Positions 1 to 17,895 of a DNA stretch of 64,000 nt are shown here, piece after piece. The stretch covers positions 1-64,000 of the forward strand of contig JACPIU010000011.1 of the NCBI GenBank assembly GCA_016187935.1, read 5' to 3'. Each line of letters starts with the position of its first letter. Within the stretch, counting starts at the first letter, position 1. Made by a program: the position numbers and the translations under genes. The notes below the pieces were generated by a model that was given only the letters and a program-made list of their open reading frames with translations, was not told where the DNA came from and did not search any database. Source of the DNA: Bdellovibrio sp. GTDB taxonomy: Bacteria > Bdellovibrionota > Bacteriovoracia > Bacteriovoracales > Bacteriovoracaceae.

Positions 1-1089
1 TTTCTTAAATATTGGGGCTTGACCACTGTGTTGAGCTTGGGACACTGGCATTTTAGATAGTGTCAGAGCTTCATCCTTAGTCATCCCAACTGCCTTCAAA
101 CGCTCATCAAGTGATCTTCCGGTGCTAAGTGGACTTTTAATACCACCTTTTTTATCAAGAAGTTTCATCTTGCTCTTATCTGGAGCATTTTCCTTTTGTA
201 GAAGTTCTTTGATTGATGGTTCCATGAGAGTGTTTGAACCAACTCGACTCATTCCTCGTGCTGCATTTTTCATTCCTCCTGCAAGCATTGGATAAAGAGT
301 CATGGCCTTCATCCCCGAACTCACGACCATTGACCCCATCTTGGCACCAAATGAATGAATGCCTTCGCCTTTTACCATCGCGTAGGTAATCATGGGGCTT
401 ATGAGTAAAAGCAGCGTCACACCAAAGAGCCAGATGATTGTATCCATCTTGGCCAAGACGAATTCCCCTGAAATGGCAGACTCATCAATGCTGTTTCCAA
501 CAAGGGCGAGAATGGTCACAATCACAAAAGGCATGGCCATGCACCAAAGACTGGCCTGCACTGTTCCCTTGAGTGAATCCTTGGTCCACCCCAGGAAATA
601 AAGAATCGCCGTGATGCCTGAAAAAACATAGGTCAGGTGATAGACACTTGAGTAGATGAGTTTGAGTAACCAGATGAAGGCCTTGCTGAAAACGAAAAAG
701 ATAGTGGCGATAAGGTCGTTTAAGTTTGGGATGGCAATAGATTGAATGAAATTCCAATCTCTCTTCTCGGTCGTCTTCATTTTGGCCGTGGTCCACTTCT
801 TAACGAAGAGATTTCTGGGACTGACCTTTTGTAACGTAATACTTGCGGTTTCAAGGGCAAGTTTTACGCCGGTGGTGTGCATCTCGTAGAATGCGCCCAT
901 AAACATGGTGATAATAAAAAGTTTAACTACGACCGCGCCGAAATTCATCTGGCCGAAATATTCCAGGATCAGGCCAATAGTGAAAACTGGAGCGACAAAA
1001 TATCCCGCGATCTGCATCATTTCTTTATAGAGAATAAAAACACTTTTCTCCTCGATTAGGAGCATTTCTTGCAAAATGTTTACATTCAT
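1..1089 (-). CDS. VirB6/TrbL-like type IV secretion membrane protein (3' end cut by window edge)
   Basis: An open frame of 363 codons runs from an ATG at 1089 off the left edge, so the C-terminus is missing. The product is polytopic: after an amphipathic N-terminus come hydrophobic segments near residues 27-40, 55-68, 130-165, 180-200 and 215-235. A Gly/Met-rich and then charged hydrophilic tail follows. That layout, directly after a VirB5/TrbJ-like and a VirB4 gene, fits the VirB6/TrbL inner-membrane channel component that helps move DNA across the inner membrane. The start overlaps the upstream stop, which suggests translational coupling. The family call rests on topology and gene order, not on a recognised motif. 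Confidence 0.72.
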   Translation of the reverse strand, partial: MNVNILQEMLLIEEKSVFILYKEMMQIAGYFVAPVFTIGLILEYFGQMNFGAVVVKLFIITMFMGAFYEMHTTGVKLALETASITLQKVSPRNLFVKKWTTAKMKTTEKRDWNFIQSIAIPNLNDLIATIFFVFSKAFIWLLKLIYSSVYHLTYVFSGITAILYFLGWTKDSLKGTVQASLWCMAMPFVIVTILALVGNSIDESAISGEFVLAKMDTIIWLFGVTLLLLISPMITYAMVKGEGIHSFGAKMGSMVVSSGMKAMTLYPMLAGGMKNAARGMSRVGSNTLMEPSIKELLQKENAPDKSKMKLLDKKGGIKSPLSTGRSLDERLKAVGMTKDEALTLSKMPVSQAQHSGQAPIFKK

Positions 1090-1772
1090 TTTGATGCCCC
1101 CCTTGCACTTCCTGGCATCCCGCGTTTTAGATTGTAGGATTGTTCCTTTTCAATTTGCTCTAAGCGTTTTTCTTCCATGTCTTCTGCAAGGAGGCGATTC
1201 GTCGTTGATACCTTCTCCAAAATTTCAAGTTGGGTTTTGTGCATATCCACGTTCGATTCATAGAGAAGTGCCGTATTCTGCGCCGTGAGCTGAGTCGCGC
1301 GCCCGGTTGTTCTGGCATTGATGGATTTTTCCACCTGGCCTTGGGCCATACGCTCTTTTTTTTGATTTACCTTTTTTTCTGATTTGACCTGTATTTTAGT
1401 TTTCTTTTCATCGCCCTTGATCTTGGCGTAGTCGCGCAAAAGTTCCTTCATGTCAGCAATTGAGTATTTAAGTTCCCGAATGGCTGAGTTAAGTTCGCCC
1501 AGGTCGTTAATTTCCTTTTTAGAAGCGAGGGACTCGGCCAGATATAAAATACGTTCGGCCCTAAAATACTCATCCTGAAATAGCTCGTTATAGTGCTGCA
1601 TTTTTTCAGTGTATTTTTCCGCGTTCGATACAAGTTTCTCAAGCTCATTTAATTGGCTCGCCGTAGTCGTAACCAGTTCAACCAAAAGTGCCGTATCAGA
1701 GCTAATGATTTGTCCATGTACGTTCAAGCTCAAAACAAAACTAAAAATGAAAAAGATTTTATGCATTTTCAT
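1086..1772 (-). CDS. VirB5/TrbJ-like secreted conjugation protein
   Basis: 228 aa with an N-terminal signal peptide ending near VHG, then an almost wholly helical, coiled-coil-rich body (Glu/Lys/Gln rich) and a basic tail. TrbJ/VirB5 proteins are periplasmic and help assemble the conjugative pilus. They typically show a signal peptide plus long helices and sit between VirB4/TrbE and VirB6/TrbL, exactly as here. Its start lies inside the end of the VirB4 gene (14-nt overlap) and its stop overlaps the next start. No catalytic motif is visible and sequence conservation in this family is low, so the name depends largely on position. Confidence 0.68.
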   Translation of the reverse strand: MKMHKIFFIFSFVLSLNVHGQIISSDTALLVELVTTTASQLNELEKLVSNAEKYTEKMQHYNELFQDEYFRAERILYLAESLASKKEINDLGELNSAIRELKYSIADMKELLRDYAKIKGDEKKTKIQVKSEKKVNQKKERMAQGQVEKSINARTTGRATQLTAQNTALLYESNVDMHKTQLEILEKVSTTNRLLAEDMEEKRLEQIEKEQSYNLKRGMPGSARGASK

Positions 1773-3636
1773 GTGTCCCCCAATGTGGATTTTTTATTTT
1801 GGTGTAATTGGTAATTGCGTCTTTGAACGGGAGAAAGCGCCCTTTCTCTTTCATGTAAAGGTCAAAATGATTGGTGTCGTTTTTATCTGAAGTAAATAAC
1901 TCGTACTCCAAGTGAGTAGGATAATAACGCAAAGGTTTTTTATGAGTGTCGCTAAGAAATAAAAATTCACTGTAGGCCCCCTTTTTAGATAAAACGGAAT
2001 CCAGTAAAGATTTTCCTGTGGCATCCAGGAACTCCGACTCCGACAGCGCCTGCTTGAACATAAGTTTGAAGTAGGTGTTTTGAATAATGACTCGCCCTAG
2101 TTGAGTTTCCGAAAAGTCATCCATGTTTTGAGAAATTGCCATGGCACTGGCGTTTTCTTTTCTAAAGGTTCTAAAGCATTCGGCAATGTAGTCAGCATTC
2201 TTGGATAGCAAATGCCAGCACTCATCAAAGACGAATATTTTTCGGCCACAGAGGTGTTTAAAATATTCAATCAAATAAATGATGAGTGGTGCCTTCATGG
2301 CGTCTGGGTAATTGCCAAAGTCGCAGTAGGTAAAACCGTTAAGTGGCATGACTTCATCTGTAAAATACTGCTCGATCTCACTAAAGTAATAGCTAATGCC
2401 GGAAAATTCTTTTTCAAGTGCTCCTATGAAACTGGCAAAATCTGGACAGGCGTCTTGCTCCAAAATATTTGTAATAACTTCAAAGAGACGCCCTTCTTCC
2501 TTTTTTGGAAGGCGTTCATCCATGGCAGACAAAACAAATTCCTTTAAATAGCGTGGATTTTTAAATTGAAGTGGATTGAATTTTTCAGAAAAAACTAGGC
2601 CTTCACCATAAAGGGCGTTCTTCCGAAAAGAATTACCAAGGTCAAGACAAAGTGCCCTGGTCCCGCGCTCAAGCTCGAATTTCAAAATTTTATTGGCCAT
2701 CATCGACTTTCCTTGGCCAGACTGCCCTGTGATCAGGCAATTGAAATTTAAGGCGTCCTTGTGAAAGAGGTCTAAATAAACTGAATTGCCCGAGCGACTG
2801 CTTAGTTCAAGGCCATCCTCAAAGATAAAATCTCGATGTAGTGGAATAAGGTAAGAGAGATAATCCGAAGGCAAGTCCAATTTTCGTTTGAAGCTTGGGG
2901 GAACGCCTGGGACCAGAGTTTGATAAAAATAGCTTAAGGCCCGTTCTTCCTTGAACAGTGAGCCATTTTTACCTTTGAATTCGGCCAAGAGGTGGTCCGT
3001 TTCTCTATCCAAGGCCTCTTTCGTGCTGGCGCGAACAAGAAAAAAGCACTCAACCAAAAAGAGTGCCTTATTATCAGTCGTGACCTCGTTTAATAGGTCT
3101 TCCGACTGATAATAGGCATTCTCAGAATCTAAATCCCGCATTCCCTTGAAAAGCGCCGAGAAGTGAAGCTTGCGCTTGAAGTTGATTTTGTTTTTGGCCG
3201 CAACTTTTGGAATCTTTTTAAAGCATAAGACAAAATCCGGGTATGAATTGGCCTCAAAGCGTCTAATCGACTCTGGAAAGTCTTCAACTGAGAGAATCCG
3301 TAGATATTCATTCCCGAGAGTCAGGTAATTATCATAAAATTGTACCCGCGCCTCTTGTTGCTTTAAAAAAGTGGCCACAGGTTCACTTTTGGGAATGATC
3401 TTTCCATGCGTGAGAGAAATATCACCAAAAGAGTTTAAGCAAAGCTTGCCGCCTAACCAATAGAACTTAAGTACATCCCCTGTTTTGATCAAATCATTTT
3501 CAAGATCAGAAAAGACTCGATCTACGGCACTTGCATCCAATCCTTCAAAATCAGGGCCTAAAATTTGAAAGAAAGTGCTGACCTCCCCATTTAGTGAGGT
3601 CAGTTTATTTTCCTCAACGTGAAATAGTGGAATCAT
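1759..3636 (-). CDS. virB4: VirB4/TrbE/TraC-family conjugation ATPase
   Basis: 625 aa cytoplasmic or membrane-associated ATPase that powers pilus biogenesis and substrate transfer in type IV secretion. The Walker A motif GQSGQGKS is at about residues 304-311, and the Walker B strand IFVFDE lies at about 467-472, followed by CWHLL. The N-terminal 280 residues form the family-typical non-ATPase domain. The length is on the short side for VirB4 proteins (usually 600-850 aa). It starts within the VirB3-like gene (23-nt overlap) and overlaps the VirB5-like gene downstream. Both nucleotide-binding motifs are intact, so it is probably functional. Confidence 0.93.
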   Translation of the reverse strand: MIPLFHVEENKLTSLNGEVSTFFQILGPDFEGLDASAVDRVFSDLENDLIKTGDVLKFYWLGGKLCLNSFGDISLTHGKIIPKSEPVATFLKQQEARVQFYDNYLTLGNEYLRILSVEDFPESIRRFEANSYPDFVLCFKKIPKVAAKNKINFKRKLHFSALFKGMRDLDSENAYYQSEDLLNEVTTDNKALFLVECFFLVRASTKEALDRETDHLLAEFKGKNGSLFKEERALSYFYQTLVPGVPPSFKRKLDLPSDYLSYLIPLHRDFIFEDGLELSSRSGNSVYLDLFHKDALNFNCLITGQSGQGKSMMANKILKFELERGTRALCLDLGNSFRKNALYGEGLVFSEKFNPLQFKNPRYLKEFVLSAMDERLPKKEEGRLFEVITNILEQDACPDFASFIGALEKEFSGISYYFSEIEQYFTDEVMPLNGFTYCDFGNYPDAMKAPLIIYLIEYFKHLCGRKIFVFDECWHLLSKNADYIAECFRTFRKENASAMAISQNMDDFSETQLGRVIIQNTYFKLMFKQALSESEFLDATGKSLLDSVLSKKGAYSEFLFLSDTHKKPLRYYPTHLEYELFTSDKNDTNHFDLYMKEKGRFLPFKDAITNYTKIKNPHWGTHENA

Positions 3637-3883
3637 TTTTCACCTCCCATGCATCACTTAGAAAGATGTCTTTTTTCATAGGCAGCATCCATCCAATAAG
3701 ATCAAAGTTCTTACGGACGAATTTAAAAGTAAGGATCGCCAGAGCGCTTAAGCTGATACTTGCAAACGGGCGAAAATTAAAAAGCATGGAGAAGTACAGC
3801 ATCGCCATCAAAACGCATAAATCTGGAAATCCAAGGCCATAAAATTCTGGCAGTGATTTCAAAAATTTTGGATATTTTCTCAT
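3614..3883 (-). CDS. VirB3/TrbD-like small membrane protein
   Basis: 89 aa with two closely spaced hydrophobic helices (about residues 20-37 and 40-55) and charged ends. VirB3/TrbD/TraL proteins are short inner-membrane partners of VirB4 encoded between the pilin and the ATPase gene, which is this position. The start overlaps the pilin stop, and the 3' end overlaps the VirB4 start. There is no diagnostic motif; topology and order carry the call. Confidence 0.7.
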   Translation of the reverse strand: MRKYPKFLKSLPEFYGLGFPDLCVLMAMLYFSMLFNFRPFASISLSALAILTFKFVRKNFDLIGWMLPMKKDIFLSDAWEVKNDSTISR

Positions 3884-4143
3884 TAGGCCAATCCTTTGAT
3901 AAAGCTCAAGATAGATGGACTCAGCATCAGAATAAAAACGCCAAGAAGTGCCTGGGTCATTTTTTGGCCGGCATCTTGCCTGCCAATCATGAAGTAGACT
4001 GCTGAAAGCACCAGACCAAAGAGCGCCAGCCCAAAACCGATTCGAGTTGTTTCCTGTGCGAGCTTATCTGCCGAGGCCTTAAGACTCACGGCCCATGAGC
4101 TTGGGGCGAGCAAAAATAGAAAGAGCAAGAGTATTTTTTTCAT
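3883..4143 (-). CDS. VirB2/TrbC-like pilin subunit
   Basis: 86 aa: a cleavable signal peptide (hydrophobic stretch after MKK, likely cut after SSWA), then two hydrophobic helices separated by a short polar loop (GRQDAGQK). This is the standard VirB2/TrbC pilin layout, the subunit of the conjugative pilus. An AGGA ribosome site lies 6 nt before the ATG. It is followed by the VirB3-like gene with overlapping stop and start. Confidence 0.8.
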   Translation of the reverse strand: MKKILLLFLFLLAPSSWAVSLKASADKLAQETTRIGFGLALFGLVLSAVYFMIGRQDAGQKMTQALLGVFILMLSPSILSFIKGLA

Positions 4144-4151
4144 CTTTGTTC

Positions 4152-6053
4152 CTAGTTGAAGTAATTGTTAATGACTGAGGTAACGGCGATTTCCATGCCC
4201 TGGAAGTACGTCTTGTTCTCGCCGAGCTTGACCGCATTCCAGTTCACCCCGCCTCGCCATCCTCCGAATTCTGCCGATTCTACCGAGAGAGGAAAACCAG
4301 ATCGCGCAGAAAAATCAACGACCATCGGGATGCAATATCCGCGATCACGCCCGGTAAAACTATTCAGTTTGACGCCATGAAAAGTCGTGTTGGTAAACGC
4401 CATGATTTTTAAGGCGAGATTGGTCTCTTCTCCCGGCGTGACTTCTTTGATCTTTTCAATGTCAGGTATTCTCAAGTGTAGATTGCCATTCATGTTTTGA
4501 ATTTCAATTTTCTTATCCTTCATAAGCTGCTCAAGCGAATATTCGTCATGATCGACAATCAAATACATCCTTTTAAATTCTGCCGTTTCCGTTGTGAGCG
4601 TAAACTTTGGTTCAATTGGTTTAAAAAGATTAATACTTATCTCACAGACAAAATCGCGCGAAATACAATTTTGTCCGCATGAGCCACCTCGACTTATCCA
4701 AGCGTCCTGAAAGTTTCCAAGCTCCTCTCCAATTCTTTTCACTGGTTTTAATTGAAACTCAATCAGACTATTTTGAGAGGAAACACCGAGTGGGAAAATT
4801 GTGAAGCTCTCACTGGTTGAAAGGTTGGCCTCAAAAGAATAGATTTTTTCAAGACTCACGCTGGCGAGTTCTTTTCCCGTGGCATAGGTAAGAACAATGA
4901 CATCAATTGGTGTAAATTTATGATCAAGGTAAGTGGTCTTTAAGCGTTTCGTGAAAACAAACCATTTACCCGCTTTATCAAGGTCTGCGACTTCTTTTAG
5001 GTGAGTAAATTCAGAAAGATTGTTTCTCCACTCGCCGATCTGACTTAAGCGATCATCCTCGATTTTGACGTTTTTATCATACAGGATCGACAAAATTTGA
5101 GAGAATGTCGCTGGACGAGCATGAACACCATCAATCCCAACGTAAGACACAGAGGTGCCAAGAGGCGTCGTCACTATCACGGGCAGGCACTTCTCTTTTA
5201 CCGATGCTAAAAGAGTTCTATAGGTGGATTCGAGTTCTGGAATCTCATAGTCGGCGACTTCCGAGATAATGAACTCGCCTTTTTTAAAATAATTGTCCTC
5301 AATTAAAAGCGAGGGAACATTGTCTAACTCAACCTCGAAAGTTTCAACTACGCCTGCTTCAAAATGGCGTGAGACTACCTTGGCGGCGATAATCTCAAAA
5401 TTCTGTGTCTCGTAATTGTAATAATAGAAGTTAAGTTTGAGATTTTTGATCGATCGAAAATATCCATTCCCCTTAAGTTTAACCGTGTTTTCAAGCGTGA
5501 TTTTGAGATTAGTGATTTCAAAGTCAGCCGAGTCAAAATATTTCTTATATTTTAAGACTTGTTCCGAATAAAAAGCAGGATCAACGTCTGGATACTTTAC
5601 CCAAGATAGGTCGTGATCTTCGATTTCTCCAGAGGAATGTGACGAAAAACGGCCTACCGATGCCGCTGATCTTAGCGCATTGCCTCGAACAAAAAGTTCA
5701 CCCACTCGATACTTGAAGGAGGGGTTATTTCGTCCAACTCTTGTATCAATTTCGATTTTTGTGATTTCCCCTGTGGAAATTGATCTTGCATCAGCGGTAA
5801 TCTTATAGTTTTGCAGAAAGTTGATCGAGAGTTCGGGAATATCGGCCACTAGAGGATGGCGGCCCAAAGATAATTCGGCGGCATTTTTAACAAAGTCACC
5901 ATCGTTGTCCGCGTTTGGATCAAGGCCAGTCTCAAGAACTTCATGCCGTCCATCACCATGGCCCTGCTCAACGCCTTGGGAATTTTCATCAGTGTTTGAT
6001 TTCAAAGAACAAGAACAGAACAAGAAAACTAACAAAATAAGTAAAAACTTCAC
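4152..6053 (-). CDS. Large lipoprotein with a calcium-type DxDxDG segment, in T4SS operon
   Basis: 633 aa starting at GTG (6053), preceded by AGGGGG. The N-terminus is a lipoprotein signal with Cys in a FCSC context. Near residues 45-60 is DPNADNDGDF, a thrombospondin type 3-like calcium-binding segment, followed by ELSLGRHPLVAD. The rest is beta-rich with scattered Cys (the C-x-x-C and single Cys of the C-terminal third may form disulfides). No enzyme motif is seen. It lies 8 nt upstream of the pilin gene, so it is probably an outer-membrane or surface component of the conjugation apparatus, such as an adhesin or mating-pair factor. That role is inferred from position only. Confidence 0.6.
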   Translation of the reverse strand: MKFLLILLVFLFCSCSLKSNTDENSQGVEQGHGDGRHEVLETGLDPNADNDGDFVKNAAELSLGRHPLVADIPELSINFLQNYKITADARSISTGEITKIEIDTRVGRNNPSFKYRVGELFVRGNALRSAASVGRFSSHSSGEIEDHDLSWVKYPDVDPAFYSEQVLKYKKYFDSADFEITNLKITLENTVKLKGNGYFRSIKNLKLNFYYYNYETQNFEIIAAKVVSRHFEAGVVETFEVELDNVPSLLIEDNYFKKGEFIISEVADYEIPELESTYRTLLASVKEKCLPVIVTTPLGTSVSYVGIDGVHARPATFSQILSILYDKNVKIEDDRLSQIGEWRNNLSEFTHLKEVADLDKAGKWFVFTKRLKTTYLDHKFTPIDVIVLTYATGKELASVSLEKIYSFEANLSTSESFTIFPLGVSSQNSLIEFQLKPVKRIGEELGNFQDAWISRGGSCGQNCISRDFVCEISINLFKPIEPKFTLTTETAEFKRMYLIVDHDEYSLEQLMKDKKIEIQNMNGNLHLRIPDIEKIKEVTPGEETNLALKIMAFTNTTFHGVKLNSFTGRDRGYCIPMVVDFSARSGFPLSVESAEFGGWRGGVNWNAVKLGENKTYFQGMEIAVTSVINNYFN

Positions 6054-6283: not shown

Positions 6284-6397
6284 TCAAAGTTTTGAAGGCC
6301 AAAGCTGTAGGGCCTTGACCTTGTTCTGTTCGATTCTTTCTTGAACCTTCGGGCATACTGATAGGCGCAGGAATTTTTTAAAATATGCAAACTTCAT
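6284..6397 (-). CDS. 37-aa basic mini-protein, translationally coupled
   Basis: A very short frame starts at the ATG at 6397 and ends with TGA at 6284-6286. The ATG is preceded by GGAGG at ideal spacing and overlaps the stop of the zinc-ribbon gene as ATGA. The product is Lys/Arg-rich (begins MKFAYFKKFLRL) with one Cys. Evidence for translation is the ribosome site and overlap only; I do not recognise the protein. Confidence 0.42.
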   Translation of the reverse strand: MKFAYFKKFLRLSVCPKVQERIEQNKVKALQLWPSKL

Positions 6398-6606
6398 GGT
6401 GTGCCTCCTGAGATGACTCGAAGTTGGCGATCAATTTTCTTTGAATATTCGCGAAACTCAACTCGGGCCCAAGGTGGGATCATCTCTTCGCTTTCGTATC
6501 TGTCATGCACGAAGAGACAGTTCACACAATGAGAGTAGGTGATTAAATGCTCATACCCACGGTCCCCGCAATGCGGGCAAGTATCAAATAAAATTCCACG
6601 TTCCAT
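6394..6606 (-). CDS. Small zinc-ribbon protein, first gene of T4SS operon
   Basis: 70 aa with CPHCG near residues 10-14 and HCVNC near 26-30, a likely four-Cys zinc ribbon, followed by a charged helix. GGAGGAC lies upstream of the ATG. Such proteins often open conjugation or plasmid operons and may bind DNA or protein, but no target can be named. It is the first gene after the promoter region at 6607-6760. Confidence 0.6.
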   Translation of the reverse strand: MERGILFDTCPHCGDRGYEHLITYSHCVNCLFVHDRYESEEMIPPWARVEFREYSKKIDRQLRVISGGTP

Positions 6607-6651: not shown

Positions 6652-6668
6652 ATCAAGAATCGTGCCAA
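6652..6668 (-). promoter_or_regulatory. Sigma-54-like element upstream of T4SS operon
   Basis: Read on the minus strand, TTGGCACG-ATTC-TTGAT matches the -24 block of a sigma-54 promoter perfectly, but has GA where the -12 block should have GC. It lies about 46 nt upstream of the start at 6606. A CTATATAGG palindrome is just downstream and could instead act as a -10-like element. Either reading is tentative. Confidence 0.35.
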
Positions 6669-6761
6669 CTTTTGTTTTGGAGAATTGAGTGAAGAATTAC
6701 GAATGGTTTGCGTTGCGTATAATTTTATTGCGAAAAATTTGCTCAAAAATTTGCGGAAATT

Positions 6762-6940
6762 GTGATGAACCATCGTCACAATTTTACCCAAATTTCCTAT
6801 GAAAATGGGTGATTCCTTTTTAGATTCGCGGAGTTTCAGAATGTGACGAGAATGTCGTCACGGCGAGAGTGAAAAAATTGCAAAAATGGGGGAAATCTTT
6901 TTTGATTCGAGGGGTTGGTTGTGTGACGAAATGTTGTCGC
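6762..6940. repeat. Three palindromes (GTGACGA-N4/5-TCGTCAC type), left flank of CRISPR locus
   Basis: Copies at 6762-6779 (one arm mismatch), 6843-6861 (perfect 7-bp arms, 5-nt centre) and 6923-6940 (two mismatches), spaced about 80 nt apart. The same palindrome occurs three times on the other side of the cas operon (13151-13324). They may be operators of one regulator or structural marks of the module. No gene covers 6669-6970 apart from these. Confidence 0.7.
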
Positions 6941-6970: not shown

Positions 6971-8120
6971 CTCTTTCACATTCCCGTAATCTCTTCGGCC
7001 TCAGACCTCACCGTCGGGTTGGCAATACAGCGAATGAGTTTGCTCTTTCACATTCCCGTAATCTCTTCGGCCTCAGACAACTGCTTAATATTCTTAGTTC
7101 TAATCTCAATCTACTCTTTCACATTCCCGTAATCTCTTCGGCCTCAGACCAATACAGCGTGAACCCAAAGCATCGGCAACACTACTCTTTCACATTCCCG
7201 TAATCTCTTCGGCCTCAGACTAACTGGCCATGCCCTTGGGCATCTGTTGCAGTCTCTTTCACATTCCCGTAATCTCTTCGGCCTCAGACAAAAAGAATTA
7301 CTCACCAAGAAACTTTATAAATTAAACTCTTTCACATTCCCGTAATCTCTTCGGCCTCAGACAGATACCTAGAAAATGAAAAAGCAGTTTTCCCACCTCT
7401 TTCACATTCCCGTAATCTCTTCGGCCTCAGACTTCCGTTATGACTTACCAATAGTCTTTCGCCTGTTACTCAATCTCTTCGGCCTCAGACAAACACCCGG
7501 CGAAAATAGATTCACAATCGGAGAACTCTTTCACATTCCCGTAATCTCTTCGGCCTCAGACGCAGTGTATGAATGTAAGTGCATGTGCGGGAAAGTCTTC
7601 TCTTTCACATTCCCGTAATCTCTTCGGCCTCAGACTGAATTAGAAAAAGAAACATCAGCTCTAGAAGGCAACTCTTTCACATTCCCGTAATCTCTTCGGC
7701 CTCAGACGAACTGCTTTTCAAGGGGCACAAATAAGATTTTACTCTTTCACATTCCCGTAATCTCTTCGGCCTCAGACAAGATCAACGCAGTCTTCAAGAC
7801 GCCGAACTAGCATACTCTTTCACATTCCCGTAATCTCTTCGGCCTCAGACTGTCCTGATAAATCATCTTTGACTCTTTCACATTCCCGTAATCTCTTCGG
7901 CCTCAGACGTGAGATTCTAAATTAAACCTAGACTTAAGCACTTCTCTTTCACATTCCCGTAATCTCTTCGGCCTCAGACTGTTGACCGGCAGCAACAGCG
8001 CCCAATCATGGGAACTCTTTCACATTCCCGTAATCTCTTCGGCCTCAGACTGTGATCTTCATCCACCTCGGCCAACCCTGCGTACTCTTTCACATTCCCG
8101 TAATCTCTTCGGCCTCAGAC
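6971..8120 (-). CRISPR. Type V CRISPR array, 17 repeats and 16 spacers
   Basis: Sixteen identical 36-nt repeats plus one variant. On the plus strand the repeat begins CTCTTTCACATTCCCG and ends TCTTCGGCCTCAGAC. Repeats start at 6971, 7043, 7114, 7185, 7254, 7327, 7397, 7455 (variant), 7526, 7600, 7672, 7742, 7815, 7873, 7944, 8015 and 8085. Spacers are mostly 33-38 nt; two are 22 nt (7433-7454 and 7851-7872). Because the cas operon and AT-rich leader lie at the right end, transcription is most likely on the minus strand, giving crRNA repeats that start GTCTGAGGCC. In that orientation the repeat shows only a weak internal stem, which suggests a separate tracrRNA rather than Cas12a-type self-processing. 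Confidence 0.98.
7455..7490 (-). repeat. Variant CRISPR repeat inside the array
   Basis: The last 19 nt (plus strand, AATCTCTTCGGCCTCAGAC) and the TCTTTC near the start match the standard repeat, but the 10 nt between are replaced by 11 unrelated nt. The preceding spacer is only 22 nt. In crRNA orientation the altered part is the half next to the spacer. Confidence 0.85.
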
Positions 8121-8268
8121 CCTTGCTTCTTTAGTAAAAATCCCTGCATAGTTTAGACCTGTAAAATGGCATTCAGGCTGTTCCACATATAAACAGTGAG
8201 TTACAGATTTAATACCAATCTAAATTTCAATAAGTTATAAGGATAATGTCTTCACGCTTCCTGGCGTT
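8121..8268 (-). promoter_or_regulatory. CRISPR leader
   Basis: 148 nt of AT-rich DNA without a gene between the cas2 stop and the first repeat. It should hold the array promoter and the integration-signal sequence. No confident -10/-35 pair was picked out. Confidence 0.65.
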
Positions 8269-8538
8269 TCAAAAAACATAAATCTTTTCCGCACTCAAAT
8301 ATGCTCCAATTCTCAATATCTTAGCATCCTCCTCATTCGGGATCGGATATATAAAAAGTTTATCGTCTGCTCCTAGCTGGATGGCTGAAATCTCCTGTTT
8401 CATTGTCTGATAAACAGTCATTGGCATCTCTGCCTCGAAGACTGAAAACTGACAACGGGTTGCATACGCCTCTAGTACACCCACGAGAGTACGACGTATT
8501 TTATCATCGGAAACATCAAAGCAAATCAATAATCTCAT
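8269..8538 (-). CDS. cas2: CRISPR-associated endoribonuclease-like Cas2
   Basis: 89 aa, standard Cas2 length. It opens RLLICFDVSD, the first ferredoxin-fold strand with the conserved Asp, and continues with the RRTLVGVLEAYATRCQFSVFE pattern of helix 1 and strand 2. Cas2 dimerises and bridges two Cas1 dimers in the spacer-integration complex. The ATG overlaps the cas1 stop (ATGA). It is the last gene of the operon, 148 nt from the array. Confidence 0.96.
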   Translation of the reverse strand: MRLLICFDVSDDKIRRTLVGVLEAYATRCQFSVFEAEMPMTVYQTMKQEISAIQLGADDKLFIYPIPNEEDAKILRIGAYLSAEKIYVF

Positions 8539-9494
8539 GCTACCTTTTTTTCATTTTCTGTGATTAGTATTCCTTCATCAGGGGAATCAATAATCAAGTT
8601 ATAAATACTGCGAGCGAAGTCAAGCATTTGCTCTCGATGCTGATCATTAAAGAATTCAGAGCGAAAAAGTTTATAAAAATGGGTTCGCTTTTCTTTATTA
8701 TCAAATGAACACTCACTTTCAATGGTTTTAAAATCAGATGATTTAATTCCTATTTCTGCTATCGCAAAAAGAACATATTGATCCGCCAGTGTAGAGCGAA
8801 ACGGTTCCATAAGGTCACAAATTAATGATTCCCTTCCGTAGTAATCACGATGGAGAAAACCAAAGGCCGAATCAAATCCAAAGGTTCGTGCAACAATTCC
8901 GGCCTCAACAAACAATAGATTGTACGCCATTGAGAGCAGCGAATTTATAGGATCAGGTGATGGGTGAAATTTGCGACCTTCAAATTTCAACTTTAGATTT
9001 TCAATAATGGGAGCAAGGTTTTGAAAATATATTTTAGAATAGTGTCCCTCAATGCCAAGTAACTCTTCGTATCCTATGCAAGACGCGATTTTTTGCAAAA
9101 TTTCTTGGATATCTGGATATGCATAGCAAGAATGCATTGCCTCGATTTTGCAGGCCACAATTTCTTTTGAAATCCTCATTGTTTTTTCTAACGAGTTTGC
9201 GGCAAAGATTTGCGCTCTTCTAACAAAAATATTCTTATTCTTCGGCCCTTCAAAGCGTCCTTGGTATTTCCCTGCCCAATCAGAAAAAACGACCTCAACA
9301 CCATTTTGGTTTAAGTCAATGATTGCTTGAGATGAAAATGAACAGTGAGCATTGACCACGACAGCATCTAAGTCAAAATAATGAAAGAAAAACTTACTGG
9401 GGGACTCCTTTGTTTTTATATAAAGTTTATTATTTTCACATCCAATGAAATTTCCATAGCCGTCAATGTAAATAATCCTTCCAAGTTGTTTCAT
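8535..9494 (-). CDS. cas1: CRISPR adaptation integrase Cas1
   Basis: 319 aa, usual Cas1 length. The N-terminal beta-domain begins RIIYIDGYGNFIG. The C-terminal helical domain carries the metal-binding site: Glu in LLGIEGHYS, His in FGFLHRDYYG and Asp/Glu in LICDLMEPFR. It catalyses integration of new spacers with Cas2. The ATG overlaps the cas4 stop as TGATG and the 3' end overlaps cas2. It is separate from Cas4, not fused as in many V-B loci. Confidence 0.97.
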   Translation of the reverse strand: MKQLGRIIYIDGYGNFIGCENNKLYIKTKESPSKFFFHYFDLDAVVVNAHCSFSSQAIIDLNQNGVEVVFSDWAGKYQGRFEGPKNKNIFVRRAQIFAANSLEKTMRISKEIVACKIEAMHSCYAYPDIQEILQKIASCIGYEELLGIEGHYSKIYFQNLAPIIENLKLKFEGRKFHPSPDPINSLLSMAYNLLFVEAGIVARTFGFDSAFGFLHRDYYGRESLICDLMEPFRSTLADQYVLFAIAEIGIKSSDFKTIESECSFDNKEKRTHFYKLFRSEFFNDQHREQMLDFARSIYNLIIDSPDEGILITENEKKVA

Positions 9495-10066
9495 CAGTCA
9501 GCTCCACAAGTTTTTTCAAACATGCATCCGCTGCATCTTGAATCAAAAACTTGGTCAAATTTTGATAACGCGAAATCTTTGCACTTATCCTTAATTTCAT
9601 TATAGAGTGTCTCAATCTTATTTTTCGCATTATTATCCCAAGCGACAGTCCTGGTCCTTCGGCTCTTTTGGTAATAAATAAGACATGCCTCGATCTTGGG
9701 TTCTGGAAATGTTTCTTCAAAACAATATGCCTCTAGCTGGCACTGTAGATCATGCTGCTCGTTGCTTCTAAGACGCCCCCTTTTCTCTTCGATGATACGA
9801 ACTGTGTCTCCGCAATAAATTACGCGATCAATCTTGCCTGTCGCTTGAATTTTTTCGGATTTAACATAGATACTGCGTTTTTCGGGCAGGCCTTCTCTGT
9901 TGTATGAAACTTTTTTATCATCTAAACGCTGATGAGTTGACCGACCATCGACGATGAAATAGTTTTCATCTTCGTGCGGTTTAAATTCAATGAGACGATA
10001 TGCGAATGACCTCTGGCAGTAAACGTACTCACTTAGAAGGCTTATTCCGAAGTAGTTTTTTTCCAT
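9494..10066 (-). CDS. cas4: CRISPR-associated RecB-like nuclease Cas4
   Basis: 190 aa from the ATG at 10066, which overlaps the cas12 stop as TAATG; an upstream in-frame TTG (10078) is less likely. An N-terminal Cys in EYVYCQRSF and the C-terminal CSGCMFEKTC supply the four iron-sulfur ligands. GKIDRVIY and the EEKRGR segment form the RecB nuclease core. Cas4 trims prespacers and selects those next to a PAM before Cas1-Cas2 integration. Its presence shows the adaptation module is complete. Confidence 0.95.
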   Translation of the reverse strand: MEKNYFGISLLSEYVYCQRSFAYRLIEFKPHEDENYFIVDGRSTHQRLDDKKVSYNREGLPEKRSIYVKSEKIQATGKIDRVIYCGDTVRIIEEKRGRLRSNEQHDLQCQLEAYCFEETFPEPKIEACLIYYQKSRRTRTVAWDNNAKNKIETLYNEIKDKCKDFALSKFDQVFDSRCSGCMFEKTCGAD

Positions 10067-12762
10067 TATGCGGCCCAACTTTTCTCTTTAGTAAATTTTT
10101 GCCAATATTCCTTCTTGTTGGGCATTTCTTTTTGCATGTCTTTGATGACCCAATGCTTATAGGCAAGCCATTTTATTAAAATGTTTTCTGATGCCTGCAA
10201 ATCTGCATTGTCCCTATGTCCACATCCCGTACAAAAAAATTGCTCACCATTTCTACTTTTACGATCAATAAGACCGCACTTTCTACAAATTTGTGATGTG
10301 TAAGCAGGATGGATTTCGAAGATATGAAACGGAAGTTCGTAGAAATTTCTGTTATCTCGAATTGTTTTTATCATCTTATACATTTGGGTTAGCTCAACAT
10401 AGGCGTTCGTGCCCTGGCGCTTTAGTTTGCTATCAATAAATTCAAAAACAAGAGAACAATAACGTTTATCTTTCCTTGCAGGAATGGAGTATTTAAGTGC
10501 CAAAGCTACAAGGTCAGCCATTGCATTATCAACAAATGATTTTACAGTGCCTGAAATTTTTTGATCAATTCTTCTAATCTTGATTGGGTTAGGGGCTTCG
10601 GAACGGGCCTGTGCTTGGTCTTTTTTTAATTCATCAATTTTACTTTTAAAACCTGCCCCGAGAGGAATTCGCTCTAATAATTTCATATCATCTAGGTCGT
10701 AGACAGCAGCGCACAAGAGGGTGTTTTCTCCTCTATCTAAACCAATGAGATACCTCGTTTGTTTAACAAGATAATCTGCTCTGCCTTCTTGTGTTTTTAT
10801 TTTTTCTGGATACTGAAGTAGCTTGTTCGCAAACCGACGCTTCACCATAGCAAATGAACCCCTAATCTCTGGGCAAGCATTGACTTTATATCTAATAAAG
10901 AAATTTGGAGTCCCTAGTTTCGTAGTCATTAGATCATTGCGATCCAAGACTTTTTTTGTAATTCCTATTGAGTGATTAAAAAAAAATTTGCGCCCAATTC
11001 TTTTTGAGAAGTGAACAGGCAGATTGATTATTGGCGCACGTAAATCTCTTGTTGCTTGTACTACTTCTCCATCATCTTTAAACTCATAGTATTGAATGGA
11101 ATTTTCAGTCATTTTATTATCATCGTTTCCACTCTGGATCACCAGATTGAACTTATAGTTTCCCAGTCCATCAGCAGCAATTTGTGGAAAAATATCCGCT
11201 TGATCAAAATTTTTGAATTGAAAACTAAACTGCTTATATGGTCTAGTTTTTAAAAGTGACATTTGCAGATCACCACAAATCTTTTTGATTTCTCCATCAA
11301 GCTGAAAAATCCGATAATCATCTTTGTAGTTTCTAGAATTTAATTCCAGCCTTAAATGCTTTTGCATGTGAGAAGCAAGTTGCCTCATTCGTGTTGCATT
11401 TAGATTGCTGAAACTCACGATATTTTGTATCTTCGCAGCTAAATATTTAGATTCTTTTTCGAGAGAAGATTCAAGAGCATCTAGCGTATTCTCAAAAATA
11501 ATGGGTCTAAGTATTCTCTTCTTATGAGAGATGATCTGATTGGAATTTTCTTCATTTTTTAATTCCAAAAACTGCTCTTTTAACATTTCTAAGGTAATGG
11601 CCTTGGGATCTTGTCGTAATATTTTCTCTGTTGCTCTTGTTTCATCGAATTTCTTTTTCCTAAGCTCGTTTAGGAGGTGCTGATATTGTAGAATTGCATC
11701 TTGAAGGACATTATCTTTCGATTTGTCTCGGTAATATGTCGAAGGACGAAATGTTGGCGGAGAAGGGTATTTTTTGATCTCTTTTAATGTCTTTATGGGA
11801 CCCGATCTAAAATCTTTCCATTTTTTCTCTAGTTCATCTCGATCTAGTTTGTTTGGTAATTCTTTTTGTGCCAAGAACTTTCTAAAGTCTTTGACCCTTT
11901 TAAAATTCTGTCCCGTCTCTTTAGAAAGCTCCTTAAGTGCATGATCTGTACACCCACCGAGGTAACCACCAAGATATACATTTAGTTGGCGTATAAAAAT
12001 ATTGTGCTCTTTTACTCCCTCATATCCTTTAAGTTGCTTGATTTTTCCTACTGAATCTATTTCAAAATTTTTTAATTTCGGAAGTCTAGCAAGAGCTTTC
12101 TCGATTAGTAGTCGTTTTGCTTTCTTCTCGTCCCATTTTTTCAGTTCTGCTTTGATTACTGAATTAAATATTTCCAAACTAACAGTTCCATCTTCATCTG
12201 TGTCAGATACCCAAGTATCGAAAATATTCTTTTTTTGATCTCCTCCAGCCATTTTCATCAGGGCCAGGTAGCTGCTAATTTTTGGTTCTAAGTCGTAGGC
12301 AATCCACCATGGAGCTTTACTTTGATTAATGTGCGCATATTGACCTTTCGATTTAGCGATCACACTTTTAGCAATCTGGTGAATATAGGCTTTCAATCTG
12401 TATTGTTGTGTACTTTTTTCTGTACCAACTCCTGTGTTTTTTAAAAATTTTCCAAACGTCACAGCGTCTAGCTCATTCCATAGACCAACGGATCGACTAA
12501 GTTCATTCCAAGTGAGGAAGCGAATATCATTCAAGTCCTCAAAAAATTTACAAATTGCATTATGCTCTTGATCAGTTACTCCTTCTTTTTCTTTCTCTGC
12601 CGATTGCTTTTCGACGAGAAAAGAAAAAGATTTTGCATCCCCATGGGCCTCGTCATTACTTTCCCCCGCTATCGGATTCCTTCTCGTATCGTTATATAGT
12701 AATTTGTCTCCTGTTGCCTCCATCATGTAGGAGAGCAGGCTTCGATCTTTTTTAACTGACAT
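10066..12762 (-). CDS. cas12: Cas12 family RNA-guided nuclease, subtype unresolved
   Basis: 898 aa single-protein type V effector. RuvC-I is IGLDRGEN (Asp about 676), RuvC-II is LVFEF (Glu about 774) and RuvC-III is ADLQASENI (Asp about 854). Between II and III is a compact zinc ribbon, Cys about 826, 829, 844 and 847. All catalytic residues are present. The N-terminal 650 residues are helical and charged, with no HNH domain. By memory the RuvC motifs most resemble Cas12e (GVDRGEN, FGRQG then QYTKM, HADEQAALNI; here KRQG then MYKM). However, the large insertion in the Cas12e ribbon is missing, the protein is about 80 aa shorter, and the N-terminal half is unlike it. A compact V-E relative, V-L or a new subtype are all possible. 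AAGGAG precedes the ATG; it is first in the operon. Confidence 0.93.
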   Translation of the reverse strand: MSVKKDRSLLSYMMEATGDKLLYNDTRRNPIAGESNDEAHGDAKSFSFLVEKQSAEKEKEGVTDQEHNAICKFFEDLNDIRFLTWNELSRSVGLWNELDAVTFGKFLKNTGVGTEKSTQQYRLKAYIHQIAKSVIAKSKGQYAHINQSKAPWWIAYDLEPKISSYLALMKMAGGDQKKNIFDTWVSDTDEDGTVSLEIFNSVIKAELKKWDEKKAKRLLIEKALARLPKLKNFEIDSVGKIKQLKGYEGVKEHNIFIRQLNVYLGGYLGGCTDHALKELSKETGQNFKRVKDFRKFLAQKELPNKLDRDELEKKWKDFRSGPIKTLKEIKKYPSPPTFRPSTYYRDKSKDNVLQDAILQYQHLLNELRKKKFDETRATEKILRQDPKAITLEMLKEQFLELKNEENSNQIISHKKRILRPIIFENTLDALESSLEKESKYLAAKIQNIVSFSNLNATRMRQLASHMQKHLRLELNSRNYKDDYRIFQLDGEIKKICGDLQMSLLKTRPYKQFSFQFKNFDQADIFPQIAADGLGNYKFNLVIQSGNDDNKMTENSIQYYEFKDDGEVVQATRDLRAPIINLPVHFSKRIGRKFFFNHSIGITKKVLDRNDLMTTKLGTPNFFIRYKVNACPEIRGSFAMVKRRFANKLLQYPEKIKTQEGRADYLVKQTRYLIGLDRGENTLLCAAVYDLDDMKLLERIPLGAGFKSKIDELKKDQAQARSEAPNPIKIRRIDQKISGTVKSFVDNAMADLVALALKYSIPARKDKRYCSLVFEFIDSKLKRQGTNAYVELTQMYKMIKTIRDNRNFYELPFHIFEIHPAYTSQICRKCGLIDRKSRNGEQFFCTGCGHRDNADLQASENILIKWLAYKHWVIKDMQKEMPNKKEYWQKFTKEKSWAA

Positions 12763-12805: not shown

Positions 12806-12890
12806 AAATAATTGGAATGTGTGGAAGTTTTTATCCCTTTTTGAGGGGGTATACCGAGGAACTTCCTAAAGAGAAATGCGGAATACCGCT
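12783..12890 (-). ncRNA. Candidate tracrRNA upstream of cas12
   Basis: Two patches on this strand are complementary to the crRNA repeat. 12869-12884 shares AAGAGA and GGAAT at the same spacing as the repeat (11 of 16 positions), and 12814-12821 matches its GGAATGTG exactly. The terminator-like hairpin at 12783-12805 follows. The patches are short and in non-collinear order, so this is a weak candidate. Confidence 0.25.
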
Positions 12891-13085
12891 TTTAGAACAA
12901 ACCTGGCATCCACTATTCGTCGATTTCCAGTTGAACTTTAGTCCATTCGTAATTACTTTTTGCCCGAGTTTTTTAAGGATTTCTCTAACGATGAAATCAA
13001 CTATTATGCCATGCGGGGTGTTTGTTCTACCTACGGTGTGTGTTTCAGTCGGATTAATTGAAGATGCCGCATACAATTGCCCCAT
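12831..13085 (-). CDS. Hypothetical 84-aa protein upstream of cas12 (doubtful)
   Basis: An open frame in the same direction as the cas operon, with a plausible helix-strand composition and a CQVC pair near the C-terminus. There is no clear ribosome site before the ATG at 13085, and I do not recognise the protein. It overlaps the candidate tracrRNA region. It may be a gene remnant or chance. Confidence 0.25.
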   Translation of the reverse strand: MGQLYAASSINPTETHTVGRTNTPHGIIVDFIVREILKKLGQKVITNGLKFNWKSTNSGCQVCSKSGIPHFSLGSSSVYPLKKG

Positions 13086-13150: not shown

Positions 13151-13324
13151 ATGACGAGATTTCGTCACGCTGAAACCGTGCAATTTAGAACCCTTCGGGC
13201 CATTACCAAAAAAAGCGACGGAACTTCGTCATTTTCTGAAAACCCGACCTAACGCGGTGATATTAAAAAAGAATTTCCTGGCAAAGGCTTTCAAAACGTC
13301 CAAATCATGACGTGTTTTCGTCAC
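13151..13324. repeat. Three palindromes, right flank of CRISPR locus
   Basis: Copies at 13151-13168, 13215-13232 and 13307-13324, all of the form (A/G)(T/C)GACGN-N4-TCGTCA(C/T) with 7-nt arms and a 4-nt centre. They match the left-flank set at 6762-6940. They lie between the CRISPR locus and the sigma-54 promoter at 13399, so they could serve either unit. Confidence 0.7.
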
Positions 13325-13398
13325 AATTTGAATTATCAAAACTGCCATGATACGTAGCGCAAGCAATAATTTCTGAGGGATAGATAATTTTTCATATT

Positions 13399-13414
13399 TG
13401 GCACACCGATTGCT
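13399..13414 (+). promoter_or_regulatory. Sigma-54 promoter
   Basis: TGGCACA-CCGA-TTGCT, with GG at 13400-13401 and GC at 13412-13413, is a near-consensus -24/-12 element. Transcription should start near 13425, 25 nt before the response-regulator ATG. As that regulator is itself a sigma-54 activator, the operon is probably self-activating. Confidence 0.8.
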
Positions 13415-13448: not shown

Positions 13449-14924
13449 ATGAGTAACAATGCACGGCAGAGAATCTTGGTTGTAGATGATCACGAATCGG
13501 TCTTGGAGGCCTTCAGACAAAATTTACAAGATGAAGATTATTGTGTGGATTATTTCATTTCAGGACTTAAGGCCTATCGGCATTTTTCCATGAGTCCATC
13601 TGAGTACGTCATGGCCTTTGTTGACTACAACCTCCTGCCTTCCGATGAGGAGTTCGCCGACGGGAGTACGCTGATCCGCAGGTTGAAAAAACTCAATGAA
13701 GATTTGATCGTGATCCTCATCTCCGGCGACACTTCAGAAGAGGCGTATCAAAAATGGCTTGATGCCGATGTGGACAAGGTACTCTATAAACCCGTCAGTA
13801 AGCAAAAAATTATTGCAAGCATCAGAGCGGCATTCGCCAAGTATGATAATGGAAGTGGCCCGCAAAAAATTTCTTCGGGCGACACGGATTATGCCAAACA
13901 AATCGGTATGGTCGGTGCCTCTGACGATTTTCAAAATACAGCAAGAAATACCCTAAAATACGCGGAAGTCGATTCTGACGTTTTGATTTTAGGCGAGACT
14001 GGTACAGGCAAAGAGCTTATCGCTAAGGCCATTCATAAGAATTCCAAGAGGGCCAAGCATGGAAAATTTGTGGCCATCAATTGCGCATCTTTTAAGGGGG
14101 ATGCCCATTTAATGGAATCAGAACTTTTTGGCCATGAGAAGGGGGCGTTCACGGGGGCCGTAGCAACGAAGATCGGAGTTTTTGAAGTGGCACATGGTGG
14201 CACAGTTTTCCTCGATGAAATTCATCATTTAGGCCATGACGGCCAGGCGAAACTTTTACGTGCCTTGCAAGAGCGAAAAATTAAGCGGGTTGGTGCTACC
14301 AAAGAATTTGCGGTTGATTTTCGTTTAATTTGCGCCGGAAAGCCCAAGCTAAAAGAAATGTGCAAAGGTGCCGACGCCGAATTTCTGCCGGACTTATTTT
14401 ACCGAATCTCTAATGTGGATATAGTGATCACTCCACTTCGAGAAAGGCCTGAGGATATTGTGCCGCTCTTAATGCACTTTAAGAATAAGGTTGAAGAAGA
14501 GTTAAGTGTGAAAAAAGAATTTTCCAAATCGGCGATGCTCGCCTTGAAAACCTACAATTGGCCTGGCAATATCCGCGAACTTGAGAATATGATTCATGGG
14601 CTGTATGTGACAGTGGAGGATAAGATAATTAAGCGAATTCACCTCTCCGATGATGTCTTGCAGGCCAAATCAATGAATGAGGCCATTGCGGAGTTAAACC
14701 TTGAGGCCCTGGAAACATTGCAGAACATGCAGATCAAGAAGGTGATTCTCGCCTCGCTTAAGAAAAATGAGCATAATATAAAACAGGTCGCAGTCGAGTT
14801 AAAGGTAAAAAGAACCACTTTGAATTCAAGAATGAAGTCGCTGGGAATTTTCGATTCTGGCCCTGCTGAACGGGATGGGATGCTGAAGGCAATAATTGAT
14901 AATTTTAGAAGCTTTAGAATGTAA
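13449..14924 (+). CDS. NtrC-family sigma-54 response regulator
   Basis: 491 aa from the ATG at 13449, preceded by AGGGG; a longer frame from 13398 would overlap the promoter. It has a receiver domain (residues 1-130) with acidic pair VVDD, phosphoacceptor Asp59 in FVDYN, Ser in LISGD and Lys in YKPVS. The AAA+ domain has Walker A GETGTGKE, the sigma-54 contact loop GAFTGA and Walker B GTVFLDE. A Fis-type helix-turn-helix ([18 protein letters not shown]) is at the C-terminus. When phosphorylated it should drive open-complex formation at sigma-54 promoters. The hybrid kinase at the operon end is the likely partner. Confidence 0.95.
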
Positions 14925-14936
14925 AGGATGGAACAG

Positions 14937-15419
14937 ATGAAAAAACAAATTTTGACTCTCTCGATTATCTCGTCGGTTCTCAATCTTAATGCTGCTTTGG
15001 CAGGTGAGCAGGGGATACAAAAGCAGAGTGGTGCCATCAAGGTGCAGGCAGATTTTTCTTGGGGAGCTGGTGACGGGGAAAGGTTATGGTTTCCTGAACT
15101 GGAAAACTATGAACTTCAAGATCGCATTATTCATGTGGTGAAAGCGTTGATTGATGCAAGTCAACTCCATGCTGATGGCATGGTTTTGGAGAAGGCCTTG
15201 AACAGACTTAAAATGCAGGTTTTGGTGTTGGATAGTCTGTACCCGGAGCATGCCGCGAGTGTGAAGCGGAAAATTGTGGATGAGTTATTGCGGGCGGGTG
15301 TCATCGTAAAAGATGATAACTCGTTTACGCTAAGCGATTCGATTGTGCACGAGCTAGAGGAGCGCGGAATTGTCACTGATATTTATGCCAAGAGAGGTGG
15401 AATTTGTATAGAAGTTTAA
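14937..15419 (+). CDS. Small secreted protein, possible modified-peptide precursor
   Basis: 160 aa from the ATG at 14937; AAGGA is well placed for it, whereas an ATG at 14928 is too close. The signal peptide ends near NAALAG. The mature part is mostly helical with an LHADG turn, a DELLRAGV segment and C-terminus AKRGGICIEV with the only mature Cys. I do not recognise the family. With a YcaO gene two genes on, the GG followed by a Cys-containing tail invites the idea of a peptide precursor, but a plain periplasmic protein is equally possible. It is 12 nt after the regulator gene and overlaps the next gene by 16 nt. Confidence 0.6.
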   Translation: MKKQILTLSIISSVLNLNAALAGEQGIQKQSGAIKVQADFSWGAGDGERLWFPELENYELQDRIIHVVKALIDASQLHADGMVLEKALNRLKMQVLVLDSLYPEHAASVKRKIVDELLRAGVIVKDDNSFTLSDSIVHELEERGIVTDIYAKRGGICIEV

Positions 15420-16954: not shown

Positions 16955-17895
16955 AATATTGGATTTCTGTCAACGCAGAAACGCTTAAGCTTCAAGTGGA
17001 GCGCATGCGCTGGGTGGATGACTGGTTTCCGGGGTATTTTGACTTTGCTGTGAGTGCCCAGGTTGATGGCCAGATATTCACGGGGCGTGGGATTGCTGGG
17101 GATGAGGATACGGCCTTCTTAAAAGCGTTGTCAGAAATGGTGGAGCGTGTGTACTGCTTCTATCATAAAATTGGAAGCAACGGTGTGGCGGCCCACCCTG
17201 ATAGAGACCAAGCAATCTTGAACGCCAAGAAGGAATTGATTGAGCGGGATGCTGTCCTTTGCCACACGTTGACCAATACACCCTTTTTTCATTTTTTAGC
17301 ACATGACCTGAAAGAATATCATTTTATAATGGATCATCTTTCTACAAAAGGCGTATCACTAAAATTGGCGCAGGCACACTCATCCGTACCAGACCTCTCG
17401 GTTGTTATCTGTACAACTTCAGGCGAGGGAATCCCGGGCCAGCTTTTTGGGTTTGGTTGTGACCATGATCTACAACGTGCCTCTTTGAAGGCCATTTTTG
17501 AATGTATGCTAAATTCTGTCGCCATCCTTGAAGGCCATGACAAGCTTCCACCGTTGCGGATGACAGAATTTTTAGAAATGAAAGTGCATGGTCCAGACGA
17601 GCATAAGCGGGTCCATTTTACCGAGAAATTGTTTTGCTTTAACACTGGGAGCACTTGTTTGCTCCCGCGACCCGGCTTAACAATTGATGATATTTCCACC
17701 CATGAGCTATTAAGTCCGATGACACTTTTTGACTCAATTCCTTTGACCGTCATGAAAGCACAGTCCGGTGCGCTTCAAAAGATGTTCTATGGGCCTCCAA
17801 AAATAGAGAACGTGAACATAAACCGGCTCACCAACTTCGCTGGCCGAACTTTAACAATTTCAGACTTGGTGAGTATCACTCACCCAATAGGATAG
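16933..17895 (+). CDS. YcaO-domain ATP-dependent peptide-backbone modifying enzyme
   Basis: 320 aa. YcaO hallmarks are in order: GRGIAGDEDTAFLKALSEMVERV near residues 50-70, SNGVAAHPDRDQAILNAKKELIERDA near 84-110 and ASLKAIFECMLN near 190. These make the ATP site, where Glu and Arg of ExxxR-type motifs bind Mg-ATP. YcaO enzymes activate a backbone amide to form azolines, thioamides or amidines. The C-terminus lacks the Pro-rich PxPxP tail of azoline-forming members, and no E1-like partner gene is adjacent. It starts inside the binding-protein gene and ends 2 nt before the kinase, so it is translated from the same message. Confidence 0.88.
   Translation: MDNIKKLKYWISVNAETLKLQVERMRWVDDWFPGYFDFAVSAQVDGQIFTGRGIAGDEDTAFLKALSEMVERVYCFYHKIGSNGVAAHPDRDQAILNAKKELIERDAVLCHTLTNTPFFHFLAHDLKEYHFIMDHLSTKGVSLKLAQAHSSVPDLSVVICTTSGEGIPGQLFGFGCDHDLQRASLKAIFECMLNSVAILEGHDKLPPLRMTEFLEMKVHGPDEHKRVHFTEKLFCFNTGSTCLLPRPGLTIDDISTHELLSPMTLFDSIPLTVMKAQSGALQKMFYGPPKIENVNINRLTNFAGRTLTISDLVSITHPIG

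Follow-up and report, generated by a model that had tools for sequence, protein, structure and literature searches.

Control of conjugation by peptide pheromones is known from plasmids of Gram-positive bacteria, as with PrgZ/PrgX of pCF10, where a short secreted precursor and an OppA-like binding protein are found beside the conjugation regulator. Control shared between separate elements is known for AcaCD, the FlhDC-family activator of IncC plasmids and SGI1-type mobilizable islands, in which the activator of a conjugative element has its sites on a separate integrative element (PMC4605294). The UAS bound by NtrC-family activators (bEBPs) of sigma54 promoters are located about 100 bp or more upstream, as one or several sites (PMC7057263, PMC4641369).

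The window, the 64,000-nucleotide stretch of DNA analysed here, carries six palindromes, three on either side of a type V CRISPR-Cas locus (Table 1). These very probably constitute the UAS of a sigma54 regulon belonging to an integrative conjugative element, with the adjacent activator as the predicted binder. As in NtrC-family UAS clusters, each promoter has more than one copy of a dyad of about 18 bp, situated 90-280 bp ahead of -24/-12, and the sites adjoin a two-component bEBP gene that is apparently autoregulated (PMC4641369, PMC7057263). Unlike those clusters, the dyad was matched to no named bEBP, three copies are present at nearly every promoter, and what they are predicted to control is conjugation machinery carried by a mobile element; a literature search on sigma54-controlled conjugation, with most subscription journals outside its coverage, found nothing relevant. 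What appeared to be an odd repeat flanking a CRISPR locus would become a defined regulon of one activator, one 18-bp site and three promoters, all for DNA transfer, and as such a testable entry to the switching-on of conjugative elements in relatives of the Bdellovibrionales.

Table 1. Positions of the features discussed, in window coordinates; distances of palindromes are to the -24 element of the promoter they adjoin, and fractions are arm positions matching the consensus.
Feature	Position	Strand	Remarks
T4SS (conjugation) genes	1-6053	-	operon continues to contig start
228-aa VirB5-like	1086-1772	-	T4SS operon
VirB4/TraC ATPase	1759-3636	-	T4SS operon
VirB3-like	3614-3883	-	T4SS operon
Pilin-like	3883-4143	-	T4SS operon
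633-aa protein	4152-6053	-	T4SS operon
70-aa zinc-ribbon-like ORF	6394-6606	-	first gene of T4SS operon; GGAGG Shine-Dalgarno
Sigma54-type promoter, T4SS operon	6652-6668	-	TTGGCAC-GATTC-TTGAT
Left proximal palindrome (putative UAS)	6762-6779	.	GTGATGA-ACCA-TCGTCAC (13/14); 111 bp upstream; kept in sister species
Left middle palindrome (putative UAS)	6843-6861	.	GTGACGA-GAATG-TCGTCAC (14/14); N5 spacer; 193 bp upstream
Left distal palindrome (putative UAS)	6923-6940	.	GTGACGA-AATG-TTGTCGC (12/14); 272 bp upstream
CRISPR array	6971-8120	-	17 repeats of 36 bp, one degenerate; between the two triplets
cas2, cas1, cas4, 898-aa Cas12-like effector	8269-12762	-	most likely deleted in sister species
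Right distal palindrome (putative UAS)	13151-13168	.	ATGACGA-GATT-TCGTCAC (13/14); 247 bp upstream
Right middle palindrome (putative UAS)	13215-13232	.	GCGACGG-AACT-TCGTCAT (11/14); 183 bp upstream
Right proximal palindrome (putative UAS)	13307-13324	.	ATGACGT-GTTT-TCGTCAC (12/14); 91 bp upstream
Sigma54 promoter, regulator operon	13398-13414	+	TTGGCAC-ACCGA-TTGCT
NtrC-type response regulator (bEBP)	13449-14924	+	REC, Sigma54_activat AAA+, Fis-type HTH
163-aa protein	14928-15419	+	signal-peptide-like start; conserved Cys near C-terminus (GGICIEV)
OppA-like solute-binding lipoprotein	15404-16954	+	SBP_bac_5
YcaO protein	16933-17895	+
Sensor histidine kinase	17898-19457	+	HATPase domain

Palindrome triplets and sigma54-type promoters

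All six palindromes of the original prediction are present, three left and three right of the CRISPR locus. Their description as GTGACGA-N4/5-TCGTCAC is exact in the arms only at 6843, the site that deviates in its 5-bp spacer; the other five agree at 11-13 of the 14 arm positions. The exact consensus occurs a single time in the window and in none of 100 shuffles, and no other cluster lies within the window. The genome scanned is a 4.40 Mb assembly of 48 contigs, of which the window is C2:1-64000. With up to two mismatches allowed, single matches are near background in the 4.40 Mb (31 against 22 for the reversed-pattern control with an N4 spacer, and 52 against 29 with N5). Palindrome triplets exceed chance by far: three triples with such spacing occur in the genome, two in the window and one at C28:88326/88394/88485, against none in 4 Markov-simulated genomes and an analytic expectation of about 0.002 per genome, which is not the picture of a motif scattered at random and frequent. 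In a logo built from 31 sites the dyad comes out cleanly as [G/A]TGACGA-N4-TCGTCA[C/T].

Overlooked in the original prediction was the sigma54 promoter that each triplet appears to serve. All three triplets of the genome are directly upstream of TTGGCAC-N5-TTG, and because each lies just upstream of a sigma54-type promoter, the triplets are assigned to those promoters. The top-ranked sigma54 promoter of the window, TTGGCACACCGATTGCT at 13398 (+), immediately precedes the NtrC-type gene (ATG at 13449). Ranked second is TTGGCACGATTCTTGAT at 6668 (-), 46 bp ahead of the start of the small ORF; the sole other match of equal score is at 16065, within the SBP gene. The 17-mer TTGGCACGATTCTTGAT is identical at the C28 triplet (G000:C28:88607), where the sites are 122, 213 and 281 bp from the -24 element, and it is present in the sister species as well. 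The T4SS and C28 promoters read TTGGCAC-N5-TTGAT, with a single deviation at -12; having TTGAT or TTGTC in place of TTGC, the T4SS and coupling-protein promoters of this genus are therefore off-consensus. The dyads fall within about 80-300 bp upstream of -24/-12, the range taken here for enhancer sites, and their placement at 91-281 bp, three per promoter, fits published UAS positions (PMC7057263, PMC4641369).

This geometry bears on the possibility that the palindromes act as RNA hairpins, either terminators or processing sites. Two stretches overlapping the right-hand sites did score as terminator-like in a mechanical scan, but the sites precede promoters and are not placed at gene ends, their spacing to -24 is fixed, and the hairpins would have 7-bp arms and 4-5 bp loops, mostly without a T run. 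None of the palindromes matched an Rfam family, and we give the hairpin explanation almost no credence.

A conserved ACGCAACGCAAACC-like element is found at 6700-6720 (-), between the proximal UAS and the -24 of the T4SS promoter, with equivalents in loci L016, L086 and L087 at T4SS or coupling-protein promoters; it is perhaps the site of a DNA-bending protein.

The CRISPR-Cas locus between the triplets

The original prediction also allowed that the palindromes mark a mobile cassette holding the CRISPR system. Their presence on both sides of the locus would suit such a reading, with the sites as the ends of a cassette that brought CRISPR-Cas in, or as duplicated marks of it. A species of the same genus, Bdellovibrionales bacterium GWA2_49_15 (MEPP01000030.1, apparently the same assembly as G002 and counted with it as one), whose regulator is 98% identical to the 13449 protein, speaks to this directly. 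It keeps both promoters and all six palindromes, with the promoters about 690 bp apart and no cas genes between them. In their place is an apparent deletion scar (L038 1330-1419) of one repeat and 54 bp of leader; the 54 bp correspond to window 8122-8175, after which homology jumps to window 13143, with the word TTCA shared at the joint. The leftover repeat and leader imply that CRISPR-Cas was formerly present, and most likely the sister species lost it while the palindromes stayed. The homology break points (6962, 8175 and 13143) all miss the palindromes, which thus do not mark the limits of the insert, and the spacing of the sites is enhancer-like and unlike that of inverted ends. The sites also persist without CRISPR in three other genera, a third triplet lies far from any CRISPR locus, and no sigma54-type promoter leads from the triplets into the array or cas genes. 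The cassette-mark explanation is accordingly very hard to credit. A mobile element does appear to exist, with the CRISPR locus as cargo inside it and the palindromes as transfer-control switches rather than ends.

Regulation of the cas genes or the array by these sites is likewise improbable, if a little less decidedly so. The right triplet is about 390 bp upstream of cas12, the left one adjoins the array, and enhancers are able to work in either direction. Against this, neither triplet has a sigma54-like promoter scoring at least 10/12 that is directed into the array or cas12. The left triplet adjoins the end of the array distal to cas2, which is probably the trailer, and the sites are kept where cas genes are absent. 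Both window promoters face away from the CRISPR locus. It is important to emphasize that repeats bracketing a CRISPR locus may have nothing to do with CRISPR; here the bracketing is incidental, and the type V system would be cargo in the gap between divergent promoters, outside control by the UAS.

Several features of the locus itself deserve mention. The degenerate repeat of the array (7455-7490) lies beside a 22-bp spacer, and a comparison of the array spacers with the other T4SS elements collected for this analysis gave no match above chance. The 898-aa effector (10066-12762, -) has Cas12/TnpB profile matches mainly in its C-terminal part, to Cas12f, Cas12u and CasPhi; a weak match to CasX covers a longer stretch and is far under the cut-off. 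No full-length homolog turned up in a further 128 genomes of this family, and the protein is possibly an unclassified type V variant. An 84-aa ORF (12831-13085, -) between cas12 and the right triplet has no Pfam match and is missing from the sister species.

The regulator operon and its relatives in other genera

Between the window and the sister species, site arms are identical at 78 of 84 positions against 521 of 606 in flanking DNA, mildly above background; at the 6843 site the arms are identical and the spacer alone differs. Comparison with other genera is more telling. When the YcaO protein encoded by the regulator operon served as query against 129 genomes of the family, the five-gene operon turned up whole at four further loci in three other genera (G046, twice, G117 and G028), with bEBPs 58-65% identical. 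In each, TTGGCAC-N5-TTGC precedes the bEBP gene, and the palindromes lie 91, 181-183 and 259-261 bp away from that promoter. The TTGGCAC-N5-TTGC form is common to the regulator promoter in all 6 orthologous loci, and the proximal site is 91 bp from -24 in 6/6. Across the 73 bp from proximal site to -24, the other genera and the window are 23-33% identical, which is chance level, while 9-12 of the 14 arm positions match and -24/-12 is intact. The homologous loci thus retain the motif at the same distances, and no CRISPR was found between their divergent genes.

At three of these four loci (L092-L094) a T4SS-type operon adjoins in divergent orientation, the fourth locus being cut by a contig end. 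Genes there include small sigma-region-4 proteins, a TraU-like protein (by reading), a T2SSE/VirB11-type ATPase and TraF/thioredoxin-like proteins. At L093 and L094 a separate sigma54 promoter, itself preceded by palindromes, serves the T4SS-type operon; at L092 none scored above threshold.

This distribution bears on which protein would bind the sites. The 13449 gene has the sigma54-interaction AAA+ domain and HTH of an activator, and the genome encodes rpoN (sigma54). It encodes further NtrC-type proteins as well, so that assignment to 13449 rests on linkage and co-conservation, and since this binding is predicted from sequence, a different regulator such as a repressor could occupy the sites, the sigma54 promoters being coincidental or used by another bEBP. 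We consider this unlikely. In one genus after another the sites accompany this bEBP gene and keep their distances; G001, of the same genus though only 83% complete, lacks both the regulator and the triplets; and the L041 type of T4SS promoter has GGTTTGA-N4-TCAAAAC instead, which hints at separate sites for separate regulators. The original proposal that one dimeric regulator binds the three-fold arrays, which listed the NtrC-type protein at 13449 among its candidates, is strongly supported by linkage, fixed geometry and co-conservation. The XRE protein at 33567 and HU at 36268, also listed, were set aside, as nothing connects either to the sites.

With the 13449 bEBP as binder, its dimers would occupy the GTGACGA-N4-TCGTCAC sites, three per promoter. 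The kinase encoded at 17898-19457 would phosphorylate and thereby activate this response regulator, which would oligomerise on the three sites, loop the DNA and open sigma54-RNA polymerase at the -24/-12 promoter 91-281 bp downstream. From 13398 (+) this would drive the bEBP's own operon in a positive feedback loop, from 6668 (-) the T4SS operon of the integrative conjugative element, and at the C28 site-plus-promoter unit a T4SS coupling-protein/MobC-like module.

What signal the kinase might respond to is suggested by the remainder of the operon. The family of short, secreted, Cys-tailed proteins directly upstream of the OppA-like lipoprotein and YcaO genes (14928-15419 in the window) has homologs in loci L087, L092-L100 and L102. 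The tails in orthologs all contain the Cys (GGICIEV, GVICFGV, GTICF, GTVCI), and more distant SBP-YcaO-kinase operons have a short signal-peptide-like ORF in the equivalent position with Cys near its end (GTICV, GTICTGAGEG). A short secreted ORF with Cys near the C-terminus, as looked for in a RiPP precursor, thus precedes the SBP gene in every readable operon, which suggests that the 163-aa protein is a candidate precursor of a YcaO-modified peptide signal.

The regulon accordingly hints at a peptide-sensing input and at regulatory sharing between conjugative and mobilizable elements. A more speculative reading, to which we incline less than to its alternatives, is that a Gram-negative pheromone system based on a YcaO-modified peptide governs conjugation through sigma54 UAS triplets, and that separate mobilizable elements bearing the same triplet might be switched on by helper elements. 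Its parts are a secreted Cys-ended precursor, an OppA-like receptor, a histidine kinase and the bEBP, and one mobilizable element also has the UAS of a second element family in tandem. The likeness to pCF10 lies in the precursor and binding protein; unlike pCF10, the host is Gram-negative, a two-component system and sigma54 are involved, and the YcaO enzyme suggests a modified peptide, the signal being a prediction. A literature search on YcaO pheromones, with most subscription journals outside its coverage, found nothing relevant.

Transfer genes and separate elements with the same sites

The T4SS operon of the window includes a VirB4 ATPase gene, and homologs of its 70-aa first ORF are the first genes of other T4SS operons (L039, L040, L091). 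The assemblies are fragmented, and the contig of the window's genome starts inside this operon; in the sister species it can be followed onward through TrbI/VirB10, T4CP, MobC-like, SSB and Xis-like HTH_17 genes to a tyrosine integrase and tRNA-Leu(CAG), the integrase and tRNA-Leu being seen in that assembly only. Two element contigs there have an exact 23-bp end in common, consistent with adjacency. The region appears to be built like an integrative conjugative element; a search for a second att site by tRNA-Leu similarity found none. Four VirB4 (T4SS) copies are present in the window's genome (G000), on contigs C2, C6, C32 and C42, those on C42, C6 and C32 being 82%, 79% and 35% identical to the window's copy.

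At the third triplet, on C28, genes for a coupling protein (TraG/VirD4) and a MobC-like protein follow 118 bp downstream of TTGGCACGATTCTTGAT. Coupling-protein genes on C23, C6 and C32 of the same genome have no triplet upstream. The sister species has a further triplet at C31:204220, 204299 and 204380, located 272, 193 and 112 bp before TTGGCACGATTCTTGTC, in agreement with the 272/193/111 of the window's T4SS promoter. It lies upstream of genes for a coupling protein (38% identical to that of C28), a MobC-like protein and an integrase (L086, G002), and no VirB4 match was found on the 439-kb contig. With an integrase and mobilization genes and no VirB4 match, C31 of G002 has the composition of an integrative mobilizable element. 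As with AcaCD and SGI1, the transfer functions of this T4CP-MobC-integrase element and of the C28 module could switch on together with those of the conjugative element; unlike AcaCD, the activator would be a sigma54 bEBP acting at UAS triplets, and mobilization is proposed here by comparison.

Upstream of the C31 triplet is another sigma54-type promoter with a distinct dyad, GGTTTGA-N4-TCAAAAC, which the window's genome also has, ahead of a T4SS operon on C32. The C31 element therefore has the look of a mobilizable element that would answer to helpers of two families. The second sigma54-linked dyad reads CGGTTTGA-ATCT-TCAAAACG at L041 7643 and L086 8071, where it precedes a T4SS operon and the mobilizable element, and it is nested in a longer GTTATCG...CGATAAC palindrome.
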